From positions 1 through 30,637 of IMG/VR virus record IMGVR_UViG_3300040770_000138: a DNA stretch of 30,637 nt; one strand, given 5' to 3'. Below, one piece after another: positions 5,899 to 10,518 of the stretch. How positions within the stretch are numbered: the stretch's first letter is position 1; each line of letters starts with the position of its first letter. Source of the stretch: a virus. Position numbers and translations under genes: made by a program. Below the pieces are notes generated by a model. That model was not told where the DNA came from, made no database searches, and was given only the letters and a program-made list of their open reading frames with translations.

Positions 5899-6195
5899 AT
5901 GACTGACCTGATTCTAAACACAACCCGGCTTGCACGCAAGACCGACCCGGCCACGAGCCACGCCGCTGCCGCACGGGTGGGCGAGTTTTCCACCACGCAC
6001 ATCCAAAAGATCCTGCGCTGCCTGTCGTACCACGGCCCGCTGACCGTTGACCAGATTGCAGAGCGCGCCCTGCTGGACCGCCAGGCGGTCAACAAGCGCC
6101 TGCCGGAGATGGCGCGCAAGGGCTTTGCGGCACCGACCGGCGCGCTGCGGCCTTCGGACAGTGGGCGCTTGGCTCGCGTGTGGGGGGTTGCGTAA
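5899..6195 (+). CDS. Winged-helix DNA-binding protein, 98 aa
   Basis: A 98-residue protein with a MarR-like winged helix. Residues about 35-80 read HIQKILRCLSYHGPLTVDQI, then ALLDRQAVNKRLPEMARKG, the last a typical recognition helix followed by a wing containing the Ala-Pro-Thr-Gly turn. The N-terminal TDPATSHAAAARV is a motif often seen before phage wHTH domains. The start at 5899 lies after the hairpin; a longer start at 5824 would include it and is less likely. The stop overlaps the next ATG as TAATG. It is a probable early regulator with unknown target. Confidence 0.75.
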   Translation: MTDLILNTTRLARKTDPATSHAAAARVGEFSTTHIQKILRCLSYHGPLTVDQIAERALLDRQAVNKRLPEMARKGFAAPTGALRPSDSGRLARVWGVA

Positions 6196-6599
6196 TGGAT
6201 TGCCCAGACTACTTCGAAGCCATCAAGCGCGAAGAAGATGCTTACATCGCAGTCAAGCGCCTCGCTGCTGAGTTGGCGGATGCCGCTTTCCCAATTAAGC
6301 ACATTGGTGACGGCAATTGCGGCTCAGTCATCCAGTACGTCATGGATGCACTTATCGCTCGTGGCGTTTACAGCGACCCGGCCACATGGCCCAGGGTTGC
6401 GCCAAAGAAAAAGATCATCGGTAACGCCCTACGCACAAAGGTTTTTGAGCGCAACGCCTACCGCTGCGTCCATTGCGCCACTCACATCGATTTGTGCGTT
6501 GACCACATCAAACCGGAAAGCAAAGGCGGCACGCTGGCCTTTGGCAATCTCCAGACGCTTTGCCGTTCGTGTAACAGCATCAAAGGGGCAAAAGAATGA
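6195..6599 (+). CDS. HNH endonuclease with zinc ribbon, 134 aa
   Basis: The C-terminal half is an HNH domain: Cys91-x2-Cys94 (CVHC), Asp103-His104 (VDHIKPESKGG), Asn118 (FGNLQTLC) and Cys123-x2-Cys126 (CRSC) followed by NSIKGAKE. These are the metal ligands and His/Asn of the McrA-type family. The N-terminal 70 residues are helical and of unknown role. It is coupled to both neighbours (TAATG and ATGA). It could be a phage recombination or host-DNA nuclease, or a mobile HNH; the tight fit in the replication operon favours a resident function. Confidence 0.85.
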   Translation: MDCPDYFEAIKREEDAYIAVKRLAAELADAAFPIKHIGDGNCGSVIQYVMDALIARGVYSDPATWPRVAPKKKIIGNALRTKVFERNAYRCVHCATHIDLCVDHIKPESKGGTLAFGNLQTLCRSCNSIKGAKE

Positions 6600-7534
6600 G
6601 TACGCACCACTCCTTTGACATTGAACATGCCCAGCTTTACGGCCTGCGCGAGGCTGTGCTGATTTCAAACCTCCATTATTGGGTGAGCTACAACTACGCC
6701 AATGGCACGCACCAGCATGATGGCCGCACATGGACCTACAACAGCGTCAATGCGTTCGAAGCTCTGTTCCCTTACCTCACTTATAAACAGATTCGCACAT
6801 CGCTGGAGACGCTTATCACGCTTGATGTGTTGGAGCGTGGGAACTACAACAAAAACCCGGCTGACCGTACATCGTGGTTCGCTTTTACTGACTCATTCCT
6901 GGCGAACAACCCTCTGCCCGAACGGGCAAATGGGCCAAAGAAGAAGCCTAAACCATCTGCCCCTGAGGGCAAATGGACTGCCCGGGAGGGCACAGCATCT
7001 GCCCAAGAGGGCGAATCACTAATAGAACCAGATGTAACCCCATTTGAAACCATTCTTTCGGCAGCGCCTACGGCACTCCCGGCAAAGGTTGAAATTCAAG
7101 ACATTACTGTCAAACAAAAGAAATCCAGCAAAGCCAAGCCTGACGACGAAGACACCGCCCTGCAAGCGGCCTGCCGGGCAACGTGGTCGGCCTACTCGGA
7201 TGCCTACTGCGCCCGCTACGGTGTCGAGCCGACGCGCAACGCATCGGTCAGCTCCAAGGTCAAGCAGTTCGTTATCCGCATCGGACAAGATGAATCGCCA
7301 GGCGTAGCCCGCTTTTTCGTTGAGCGCGTCAGTGAAGCCTTTGTCGTCCGCGGCTATCACGCCATAGGCACGCTGCTGCAAAACGCCGAGGCTTACCGCA
7401 CGCAATGGGCTACTGGCCAGGCCATGACCAACACCCGCGCCCAACAGGCCGACAAAACCCAATCCAACTTCGACGCAGCACAAGGCGCTAAAGCCCTGCT
7501 GCGCGCCCGCCGGGAGCAACGCGATGCTGAATGA
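6596..7534 (+). CDS. Phage replication initiator (lambda O-like role), 312 aa
   Basis: A three-part replication protein. Residues 1-105 form an N-terminal winged-helix domain of the replication-initiator type (YGLREAVLISNLHYWVSYNY, TYKQIRTSLETLITLDVLER). Residues 105-145 are a low-complexity stretch with repeated A-x-E-G units, encoded by a run of DNA iterons. The C-terminal 130 residues (from ALQAACRATWSAYSDAYC) are helical, with a GYHAIGTLLQNAEAYRTQWA element, and probably contact the helicase loader. The start forms an ATGA overlap with the HNH gene. Position before a lambda P-position gene, and the origin-like iterons inside the gene, match the lambda O arrangement. Sequence similarity to lambda O itself is not evident. 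Confidence 0.8.
   Translation: MSTHHSFDIEHAQLYGLREAVLISNLHYWVSYNYANGTHQHDGRTWTYNSVNAFEALFPYLTYKQIRTSLETLITLDVLERGNYNKNPADRTSWFAFTDSFLANNPLPERANGPKKKPKPSAPEGKWTAREGTASAQEGESLIEPDVTPFETILSAAPTALPAKVEIQDITVKQKKSSKAKPDDEDTALQAACRATWSAYSDAYCARYGVEPTRNASVSSKVKQFVIRIGQDESPGVARFFVERVSEAFVVRGYHAIGTLLQNAEAYRTQWATGQAMTNTRAQQADKTQSNFDAAQGAKALLRARREQRDAE
6915..7013. repeat. Four iterons, candidate replication origin
   Basis: Four copies of TGCCC-N4-GGGCA lie at 6915-6928, 6958-6971, 6979-6992 and 7000-7013 (the last ends GGGCG). Start spacings are 43, 21 and 21 bases, close to whole helical turns. Copies 1 and 2 share CTGCCC, four variable bases, then GGGCAAATGG, although copy 1 is read in a different codon phase. 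An AT-richer stretch follows (about 7013-7060). Lambda has the same plan: four palindromic O-binding iterons inside gene O beside an AT-rich region. Confidence 0.75.
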
Positions 7535-8345
7535 ACAAGAGCTTGATTGGCTGGTTGACCAACTGGCTGCAACATCCGAACTGCTGGGCCAGCAATTGAG
7601 CATGACCGCCGCGGCGATGCTCGCTGAGGACTTAGCCGACTACACGCGCCCGGTGCTGGCCGCGGCTTTAAAGCGTGTTCGCACGGAATGCACGGGCAAG
7701 ATGACGCCCAAGGTCATCATTGAGTGCATTGATGCAGCCATGGGCCGGCCAGGCGCAAACGAAGCCTGGGCGGGGGCGCTGATGGCCTTGGACGAGCGCA
7801 ATACAGTCGTTTGGACTGAGGAAATGGCGCAGGCTTGGGCGGTGTCGCAGCCGCTGGCCGCGGGTGGCGACCTAATCGGCGCTCGCATGGCCTTCAAGGA
7901 TGCCTATGAGCGACTGGTCCGGTCTGCCCGTGAAGAACGCCGCACGCCGGTGGTTTCTGTGTCGATTGGCTGGGATGCCGCGGGCCGCACGGCGCCGATT
8001 GAGCAGGCTATGAAGCTGGGTTACATGCCGCCCAGCCAGGCCGCGCACTACCTGCCAGCGCCAGCGGCCACAGTGGACCCGGTGCTCATGTTGGCTGGCC
8101 ATGGCGAGATGCCCGCCGACATGCCGCAGGCGGTTCGCGCCCGGCTGCTGGCGCTGCGCGATGAGTTGGCAAACGCCAAAGCGCAGCACGCCGCGGCGAT
8201 GGCCCTGCGCGCAGAGGCCGCGGCTGCTGATTTGATCGCCCGCAAAGCACAGGCGCAAAGCATGGCCGATGAGTTCACCGCACTGATTGATGAGGCCGCA
8301 GTGTTGCGTCAGGCCGAGTGGGCCGCCGCAGGAGCGCTCGCATGA
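7524..8345 (+). CDS. Replication-module protein in the helicase-loader (lambda P) position, 273 aa
   Basis: A 273-residue, Ala-rich and largely helical protein. The N-terminal 70 residues (QELDWLVDQLAATSELLG, MLAEDLADYTRPVLAAALK, TPKVIIECIDAAMG) match a family I know only as conserved phage hypothetical proteins next to initiator genes. RPGANEAWAGALMA and VVWTEEMAQAWA are further recognisable blocks. The C-terminal 80 residues are a probable coiled coil. No Walker motif is seen, so it is not a DnaC-type AAA+ loader; a lambda P-like helicase-delivery role is inferred from position only. It overlaps the initiator gene by 11 bases. Confidence 0.7.
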   Translation: MLNEQELDWLVDQLAATSELLGQQLSMTAAAMLAEDLADYTRPVLAAALKRVRTECTGKMTPKVIIECIDAAMGRPGANEAWAGALMALDERNTVVWTEEMAQAWAVSQPLAAGGDLIGARMAFKDAYERLVRSAREERRTPVVSVSIGWDAAGRTAPIEQAMKLGYMPPSQAAHYLPAPAATVDPVLMLAGHGEMPADMPQAVRARLLALRDELANAKAQHAAAMALRAEAAAADLIARKAQAQSMADEFTALIDEAAVLRQAEWAAAGALA

Positions 8346-9704: not shown

Positions 9705-9895
9705 GCGCAGCTAAAACCGACCTGGCCGACCGCTTGACGCAGCTGTCAGACAAACTACACGAAGCCGCTGACGATATGCGCGCCCTGAACCATCCCGTTC
9801 ACGCCGACCAGCTGGGCAGCATGGCATCCCATGCAAGCATTTACGCGCATCAACTGCGCTCGCTGGTCAAGCTGAATGGGGTGTCGTCATGCTGA
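9701..9895 (+). CDS. Hypothetical small helical protein, 64 aa
   Basis: A 64-residue mostly helical protein (LADRLTQLSDKLHEAADDM, then HASIYAHQLRSLVKL). It overlaps the methyltransferase by ATGA and NinG by 7 bases, so its translation is probably coupled. No family recognised; the two helices could form a small helical hairpin. Confidence 0.6.
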   Translation: MSAAKTDLADRLTQLSDKLHEAADDMRALNHPVHADQLGSMASHASIYAHQLRSLVKLNGVSSC

Positions 9896-10518
9896 TACGC
9901 GCCGGAATCCGCAGAAGGCCCGAAACCCGGCTGGGTCAGTTCTTCGCCGTCAAGTCCAAGGTCTGCCAGAACTGCAAACAGAAGTTCACGCCGGATCTGC
10001 CTGGGGCCATCGCTTGCTCTGAGCTTTGCGCCATCGCTTACGCCGTGTCCGTCAACGGCAAGGCGCGCAAGGTGGCGCAGGTCAAGGAGCGCAAGGAGAC
10101 CAAGGCCGCGCTGGAGAAGTTCAAGACGCCCTCAGCGCATGAGTCTGAATGCCGGACCATCGTGCAAAAGCTCGCCCGGATCCGGGATCGCCACGATGGT
10201 TGCATTTCATGCCACATGGGCGCCGGCTACTCGGGCATGTGGCACGGCTCGCACTTTCGCCCAGCCGGGAACAACGCCGCCGTCCAGTTCCACCTTTGGA
10301 ACATTCACAAAGCCTGCGCGCAATGCAACCTGTTCAAAGGCGGGAACCTGTCGGCCTACCGCCCGCGCCTGGTGGGAAAGATTGGCGCCGACCGCGTGGA
10401 ATGGCTGGAGTCGCAAAACCAGCCCGTCAAGACGAATGTGGCTTACCTGATCCGCTTCAAGGCGGTGATGGGCAAGCGGCTTCGAAGAATCGAAAAACAA
10501 ATTAAGGCCCAAGCATGA
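9889..10518 (+). CDS. ninG: NinG/Rap-family recombination protein
   Basis: A 209-residue protein matching lambda NinG (Rap) in length and pattern. Lambda Rap is a structure-specific nuclease that acts on recombination intermediates such as D-loops and Holliday junctions. The N-terminus has zinc-ligand cysteines (Cys26, Cys29, Cys43, Cys47). The C-terminal domain has the family core, with CISCH, MWHGSHFRPAGN, HLWNIHKACAQCN and LSAYRPRLVGKIG, which is HNH-like with His and Cys ligands. It overlaps the previous gene by 7 bases and the next by ATGA. With NinB two genes on, it marks a lambda-type nin region. Confidence 0.88.
   Translation: MLIRAGIRRRPETRLGQFFAVKSKVCQNCKQKFTPDLPGAIACSELCAIAYAVSVNGKARKVAQVKERKETKAALEKFKTPSAHESECRTIVQKLARIRDRHDGCISCHMGAGYSGMWHGSHFRPAGNNAAVQFHLWNIHKACAQCNLFKGGNLSAYRPRLVGKIGADRVEWLESQNQPVKTNVAYLIRFKAVMGKRLRRIEKQIKAQA

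Follow-up and report, generated by a model that had tools for sequence, protein, structure and literature searches.

A probable iteron replication origin inside a viral initiator gene, and a candidate residue-base code for its recognition

Palindromic repeats lying within a protein-coding gene raise the question of which is being conserved, the DNA or the peptide that it encodes, and what the repeats do. The question was addressed for a stretch of viral DNA of 30,637 bases (IMG/VR record IMGVR_UViG_3300040770_000138, positions 1-30,637), a linear fragment referred to below as the window. A sequence-only reading of the window had proposed that palindromes in a replication initiator gene form an iteron-type origin, and that the DNA is the object of selection.

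The initiator gene and its palindromes

The palindromes lie in gene P0001 (6596-7534, + strand; 312 aa). Its proposed identity as a replication initiator is borne out by a match of residues 3-122 to PHROG 11233, 'replication initiation protein' (E 5.4e-34). Residues 182-309 match PHROG 11527 (E 3.9e-29) and residues 113-297 match PHROG 391, 'O-like' (E 1.4e-13). Pfam searches returned no family for P0001 at E 0.01 and none for its N-terminal domain at E 1; the other 39 members of the family gave 51 matching families in the Pfam search, 25 of them listed.

According to the predicted model and its fold matches, residues 1-104 (6596-6907, + strand) constitute an N-terminal winged-helix DNA-binding domain, for which the pLDDT means over 10 residues were 86-98. 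A helix of the model at residues 63-75 (6782-6820, + strand) is the putative recognition helix, a designation also based on covariation described below; K64 (codon 6785-6787) and R67 (codon 6794-6796) lie at its start. Nearly all residues of the linker (117-184) have a pLDDT below 50 and the linker is predicted to be largely disordered. The C-terminal part of the model is helical, with mixed confidence, and contains the domain matching PHROG 11527 (7139-7522, + strand).

Structural comparison of the window model ranked 4pql_A (Z 9.7, rmsd 3.0, 93 residues aligned) and 4pt7 (Z 9.5) highest. Four of the seven top structural matches were 4pql, 4pt7, 5kbj and 4pta (Z 9.7 to 8.6), which we take to be staphylococcal RepA entries; 5kbj is a Rep-DNA complex. 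Winged helices of RNA polymerase III equalled these matches, with Z scores of 9.3 and 9.0. The likeness in predicted fold supports kinship with Rep N-terminal domains, but is no proof of it. Foldseek found nothing below E 0.001 for the window model, nor for the second model searched, and a profile of the N-terminal domain compared with the sequences of solved structures yielded two Fic-family entries only (E 0.33 and 0.36).

Four TGCCC-N4-GGGCA palindromes had been claimed within the gene. Three are exact, namely iteron 1 (TGCCC-GAAC-GGGCA, 6915-6928), iteron 2 (TGCCC-CTGA-GGGCA, 6958-6971) and iteron 3 (TGCCC-GGGA-GGGCA, 6979-6992), while the fourth (TGCCC-AAGA-GGGCG, 7000-7013) carries one mismatch. 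Steps of 43, 21 and 21 bases separate the copies, as proposed. The 43 bases between copies 1 and 2 are approximately two 22-bp steps, and no further copy is visible by eye between them. Together the iterons cover codons 107-140, the first of them lying at the border of the folded domain. The exact palindrome does not occur in the 30,637-base record other than at 6915, 6958 and 6979, and the pattern read backwards has zero matches across the whole record; when two mismatches are permitted the pattern becomes unspecific, with 52 matches against 37.8 expected. Cumulative GC skew of the linear fragment pointed neither for nor against an origin position.

Distribution of the palindromes and of the N-terminal domain

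Viral contigs were scanned for pairs of palindromes with 4-30 bases between them. Such pairs were present in 72 stretches, against one for the reversed pattern, a rough control with an unmatched expectation since the reversed pattern contains CG steps and the real one none. After one stretch had been dropped for want of a covering frame, a frame extended over the pair in 71 of the 72, and an iterated profile search showed that 58 of these 71 frames encode an N-terminal winged-helix domain of the window type. At least 116 stretches with a palindrome pair were present in genome contigs; all 116 were analysed and nine were dropped for want of a covering frame. The domain was found in 13 of the remaining 107 frames, 94 being without it, and the palindrome pair alone is therefore not diagnostic in genome contigs. 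The C-terminal domain of the window matched none of the 178 viral and genome-contig frames at E 0.001. Sampling of genomes for the N-terminal domain gave 9 positives among 385 genomes and 2 among 369, loci that lie outside the further analysis.

TGCCC-N4-GGGCA arrays in frames without the initiator N-terminal domain were observed at L087, L091 and L144 of a Neorhodopirellula genome and likewise in genome contigs L141, L146 and L154. These arrays have steps of 20-28 bp and several occur in one genome.

The C-terminal domain has been exchanged between initiators. In L074, L075, Pavtok and Parlo a C-terminal domain of the window type (C-part identity to the window 45.5% for Pavtok and 57.4% for Parlo) stands behind unrelated N-terminal domains, and initiators of this composition contain no TGCCC pairs. 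L074 and L075 possess repeats of their own alongside the unrelated N-terminal domains; the initiator of L075 (2779-3693) has six copies of CTTCGGAAA at steps of 21-23 bp, in all three codon phases. No repeated inverted repeat was found in Pavtok or Parlo. Since the TGCCC pairs are gone where the C-terminal domain is kept and the N-terminal domain changed, the palindrome goes with the N-terminal domain in both directions.

A protein-based scan of viral sequences for the N-terminal domain used two peptide patterns; the best 80 of 289 relatives were kept and yielded 73 distinct genes, a set that leans towards K64 because one of the patterns includes KQ. Two or more TGCCC-type linker sites were present in 19 of these 73 genes. 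The relatives without TGCCC are not simple losses: many have palindromes with different arms at the corresponding position, and these arms follow the recognition helix, as shown below. For 55 dereplicated genes selected on protein only, the best palindrome triple at 21-23 bp steps, scored blind to the arms, reached 11.2 of 15 in the linker; the N part scored 9.3, the C part 9.7 and shuffles 9.4. A caller that in addition favours like arms was applied to 101 genes, 38 of them palindrome-selected, that remained of 154 after dereplication with a cut-off of 0.85 for the similarity ratio of the N-terminal domain; it scored 23.2 in the linker against 16.2 in the N part and 16.5 in the C part (Wilcoxon p 2e-18 and 1e-17).

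Copies within one gene tend to share their arms and the arms differ between genes. They read CGCCG in BcepMigl, TGGCG in plasmid pBVIE05, AGCC in Vibrio phage 1.091.O, GTGCA in a Flavobacterium phage, TTGCA in Bacteroides phage B124-14 and TCACA in Lactobacillus phage phiLdb. Among the 12 named relatives scored, clear iterons were absent from D'Alembert, a Helicobacter equorum prophage and a Geobacillus phage; phage Ld25A and the distant N-domain relatives SopranoGao and 8P were left unscored.

Covariation of the recognition helix with the palindrome arms

Arms were called blind to the protein, and the information between each variable residue of the N-terminal domain and the five arm bases was calculated. 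The caller, which considers steps of 21-24 bp only and whose spacer preference comes from TGCCC genes, was fixed before the test, as was a score cut of 22.5, below which 11 of the 101 first-set genes and 14 of 84 new genes fell; a cut of 25 was added later. Among 480 pairs in 90 genes, residue 64 with base 3 showed the highest excess (0.85 bit), followed by residue 67 with base 2 (0.51). The same two pairs ranked highest, at 0.99 and 0.65, when palindrome-selected genes were removed (53 genes, 430 pairs). The third pair was residue 64 with base 5, with an excess of 0.48 in the first set and 0.44 in the new genes; K64 thus also tracks base 5 and the residue-base pairing is not cleanly one-to-one. 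In the first set K64 occurred with C at base 3 in 62 of 64 genes, D64 with G in 6 of 6, N64 with G in 5 of 5 and R64 with A in 4 of 5, and R67 occurred with G at base 2 in 76 of 79.

Predictions from this code were fixed in writing, after which three further scans were performed and the best 80 of 224, 236 and 343 relatives, respectively, were taken. Once genes similar to one another or to those of the first set, as well as two short ones, had been removed, the 84 dereplicated new genes were left. For the 70 above the cut of 22.5, the prediction was right for base 3 in 33 of 46 cases and for base 2 in 41 of 57, where shuffling gave means of 12.8 and 19.9. Without the commonest residue the figures were 21 of 32 for base 3 (shuffled mean 10.3, p 0.00005) and, for genes lacking R67, 15 of 27 for base 2 (shuffled mean 7.8, p 0.0011). 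At the cut of 25, which 48 new genes passed, the predictions taken together were right in 22 of 27 cases for base 3 and in 30 of 38 for base 2.

Broken down by residue, the new genes gave D64 with G in 7 of 7, K64 with C in 12 of 14 and N64 with G in 6 of 8, and the assignment of R64 to A was weak (8 of 17). At residue 67, R went with G in 26 of 30, D or E with C in 6 of 13, Q with A in 6 of 9 and G with T in 3 of 5. Beyond the predictions, Q64 was seen with T (4 of 4), G64 with T (3 of 3), H64 with G (3 of 4) and K67 with G (5 of 6). Analysed alone, the new genes again gave residue 64 with base 3 the top rank among 430 pairs and residue 67 with base 2 the next. BcepMigl, with R64, is a misfit to the code, and the K64 relatives L222, L241, L284 and L287 had no TGCCC call.

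Gene pairs were also sorted into four bins according to their identity outside the recognition helix. Where residue 64 agreed, base 3 was shared in 240/248, 810/854, 1051/1168 and 350/370 cases (90-97%), and where it differed, in 20/212, 145/1356, 400/2902 and 135/765 (9-18%). For residue 67, base 2 was shared in 87-94% of like pairs against 24-29% of unlike pairs across the four bins. No p value is attached to these comparisons as gene pairs are mutually non-independent. Relatedness does not explain the covariation between residues and bases. The covariation strongly supports the view that the iterons would be bound by the product of the gene in which they lie.

The AT-rich stretch and the downstream element

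An AT-richer stretch had been reported to follow the palindromes, and the base composition agrees, with an AT fraction of 0.64 in 7014-7060, the gene as a whole having 0.44 and the window 0.39. Over the whole candidate unwinding region (7014-7135) the fraction is 0.57, and the AT-richest 60-mer of the gene begins at 7084. Across 126 relatives, A and T make up 68-69% of the 40 bp that follow the final called iteron; the genes average 56%.

A single CCAGAT, read from the sequence, is present at 7028-7033 (+ strand) of the window. In relatives the element [AC]CAGATANTAA often repeats at 12-bp steps directly behind the iterons.

The motif [AC]CAGAT is 30-fold commoner in the 70 bp behind the iterons than in the rest of the genes and is found within those 70 bp in 97 of the 126 genes; 74 of 106 spacings between [AC]CAGA motifs are 12 bp. 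Behind the iterons, Pro-Asp pairs are written CCAGAT in 104 of 109 instances, compared with 12 of 75 elsewhere, and Thr-Asp pairs are written ACAGAT in 82 of 85, compared with 15 of 90 elsewhere; proline without a following aspartate in the same stretch is encoded by CCA in 100 of 269. This codon bias indicates that the downstream element, too, is held at the level of DNA. It stays in one frame in 182 of 192 cases. Among initiators with repeats of their own, L075 has one site behind them and none was found behind the repeats of L074, SopranoGao or 8P; Pavtok and Parlo have CCAGTAA-like variants only. The element may serve unwinding, helicase loading or the binding of a host factor.

Neighbouring genes

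The gene following the initiator (7524-8345, + strand) matches PHROG 6028, of unknown function, and had no Pfam family at E 1. Its model was best matched by the lambda P loader on DnaB (9oa1_Z; Z 5.9, rmsd 8.2) and also matched SPP1 G39P (1no1; Z 4.7), both Z scores being inside the chance range for helical proteins. With fold matches this weak and no Pfam family, it is only tentatively called a helicase loader. Among 17 named regions, the next gene is hypothetical or something else in 12. In the other 5 it is annotated as DnaC-like loader in BcepMigl and phiLdb, loader of the replicative helicase in the Geobacillus phage, primase/helicase in the Flavobacterium phage and P-loop protein COG0305 in Vibrio phage 1.112.O.

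Upstream, the start of the initiator gene shares 4 bases with an HNH endonuclease gene, an arrangement present in the window and also in BcepMigl and Vibrio phage 1.247.A. HNH genes are located at 6180-6599 in the window, 2555-2998 in L194 and 1124-1492 in L203; the top NCBIfam match of the window gene is IscB, far below the cut-off. Elsewhere in the window, a gene at 11197-12105 matches PHROG 314, a homing endonuclease, and lies downstream of a NinG gene (9889-10518).

Proposed function of the locus

As a whole, these observations are very probably best explained by an iteron replication origin that extends from 6915 to approximately 7135 inside its own initiator gene and is read by the N-terminal domain of that gene's product. 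We infer binding, dimer formation, unwinding, helicase loading and use as an origin as follows. Each palindrome would be bound by the winged-helix domain, most likely in the form of a dimer that places a recognition helix on either TGCCC arm, with R67 reading arm base 2 (G) and K64 reading base 3 (C). Several dimers would line up along the same side of the double helix, at steps of two turns (21-22 bp) or four turns (43-44 bp). The AT-rich DNA directly downstream, with its CCAGAT element, would then open, and the C-terminal domain and the protein encoded by the following gene may together bring in the host helicase.

Alternatively, the palindromes might be operators, bound by the N-terminal domain for autoregulation of its own gene, with replication starting elsewhere. 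A winged-helix domain acting on sites in its own gene would give the same sequence picture, and all of the covariation demonstrates binding specificity rather than origin function. The sites, however, lie in mid-gene, away from any start, with an AT-rich stretch and a second DNA-level element close behind them, and the family is annotated as replication initiation; furthermore, the available parts of the literature on lambda O and pSK41 Rep describe the same layout as an origin (PMC7466680, PMC5703833). Autoregulation of this kind is accordingly considered unlikely.

It is reasonably probable, though by no means assured, that initiator genes of this type are self-labelled pairs of reader and target. 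Residue 64 would set base 3 (K for C; D, N or H for G; Q or G for T) and residue 67 would set base 2 (R or K for G; D or E for C; Q for A; G for T), so that sequence would reveal origin specificity, and with it which initiator can fire which origin, throughout a large family of phages, and the second element at 12-bp steps behind the iterons would be a widely shared sequence for unwinding or helicase loading. Origins in such a family would be locatable from DNA alone and each genome would provide a data point on DNA reading by a winged-helix domain. Compatibility of origins between phages, and targeting by origin-directed nucleases resembling ICP1 Odn, would become predictable and testable.

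DNA or peptide as the selected object

The frame of P0001 agrees with the proposed change of codon phase, copy 1 beginning on the second base of a codon and copies 2-4 on the third. Copies 1 to 4 translate as LPERAN, SAPEGK, TAREGT and SAQEGE, peptides that differ as had been stated, and copies 1 and 2 nevertheless agree at 21 of 26 bases (81%) despite the change of frame. From the window alone the argument amounts to one frame change; it becomes strong with the addition of the relatives. The prediction that the palindromes would persist in homologues while the linker peptide drifts was upheld in 49 dereplicated relatives having at least two TGCCC sites with one mismatch allowed, most of them found by the palindrome: 46 of the 49 use two or three codon phases (three in 23, two in 23, one in 3). 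Of 98 steps in these relatives, 59 are exactly 22 bp, a step that shifts the frame each time, so that the copies pass through all three frames, and a single DNA element reads CPxGQ, LPxRAN or AxxGK depending on the frame. The 11 relatives found without the palindrome comprise five with three phases and six with two.

Single-phase exceptions include L079 (276-1214) and L039 (4709-5377), each with five copies, one mismatch allowed, all in phase 2. Their steps are 21-36 or 24 bp.

Synonymous recoding of residues 97-160, drawing on the codon usage of the main genes of the window, produced no exact palindrome in 96,814 of 100,000 trials, one in 3,169, two in 17 and three in none; the peptide does not imply the palindromes. 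Taken with the use of several phases in relatives, the recoding result upholds the view that the DNA is the selected object. The alternative, in which a peptide repeat (APEGK, LPERAN and so forth) is selected, for example in a protein-binding linker, and the likeness of the DNA merely follows, draws on window copies 2-4, which lie in the same codon phase and encode similar peptides. It is highly improbable and was rejected on account of the frame changes, which give different peptides in nearly all of the relatives, and of the recoding trials; the linker is, moreover, mostly predicted to be disordered. Iteron DNA must also be translated, and here it encodes this linker, whose peptide would be free to change. 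The family offers a clear case in which a constraint on DNA overrides that on protein within a gene, one 22-bp element being translated in three frames.

Every copy is an inverted repeat, as would also be expected of hairpins in mRNA or of cruciforms that have no sequence reader. Pairing alone, however, would leave each copy drifting independently, whereas the arms are shared within a gene, differ between genes and track two residues of the recognition helix; structures of this kind are very improbable as the explanation and were rejected on the sharing of arms and the covariation. Selfish palindromic elements spread by insertion in some bacteria, and pairs with the same arms do lie outside initiators in genome contigs (the 94 frames without the N-terminal domain), but the landing of such a small repeat in the initiator gene is extremely improbable and was rejected, as the palindromes occupy the same place in the same type of gene in many viruses, their arms are matched to the protein of that gene and the record contains no other exact copy.

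Comparison with known systems

An iteron origin inside an initiator gene is a kind already known from lambda O, P22 gene 18 and pSK41 Rep. Searches of the open-licence literature found no earlier description of a 22-bp array in three frames as the trait of a family, of the two-residue code or of the 12-bp element.

Phage initiators annotated as DnaD-like, from phages of Gram-positive bacteria, are related in sequence: PHROG 6493 matches residues 12-126 of the window protein (E 3.1e-16), and tblastn with the N-terminal domain of a relative retrieved Staphylococcus phage proteins with this annotation. An iteron origin inside the initiator gene is stated for P22 gene 18 and gene 18 of phage L in the available part of PMC8022706, where the phage L repeat is an 11-base sequence unlike the window palindrome and no residue-base code is given. 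In PLE the RepA_N domain covaries with its origin (PMC8263062); the origin of PLE RepA and ICP1 Odn, by contrast with that proposed here, is intergenic with three semi-palindromic iterons of approximately 30 bp, and the excerpt available gives no per-residue code.

Lambda gene O had been said to follow the same plan with other iteron sequences, and this holds. Its annotated iterons stand at gene phases 0, 2, 2 and 1 and are mid-gene inverted repeats at steps of 20, 24 and 23 bp, in several codon phases as in the window family. Lambda and Stx phages have an iteron origin inside the O gene followed by an AT-rich tract, and O proteins are dimeric, as described in the portion of PMC7466680 concerned. 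The lambda arms are of the ATCCCT..AGGGA type, unlike TGCCC, and the lambda tract differs from the downstream [AC]CAGAT element. The window protein has no full-length sequence match to the O family, PHROG 391 covering residues 113-297 only.

The window protein has no Pfam sequence match to RepA_N (PF06970), and the Rep fold matches share only 6-11% identity with the window model over the aligned parts; both kinds of initiator gene have origin-type repeats within the part coding for the central linker. In pSK41 Rep, according to the available sections of PMC5703833, an N-terminal domain of 120 aa binds Rep boxes in mid-gene, the C-terminal domain is separate and the origin encodes the linker, a stretch of peptide that can be dispensed with. 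This plan of N-terminal domain, origin-encoded linker and C-terminal domain resembles that of the window initiator.
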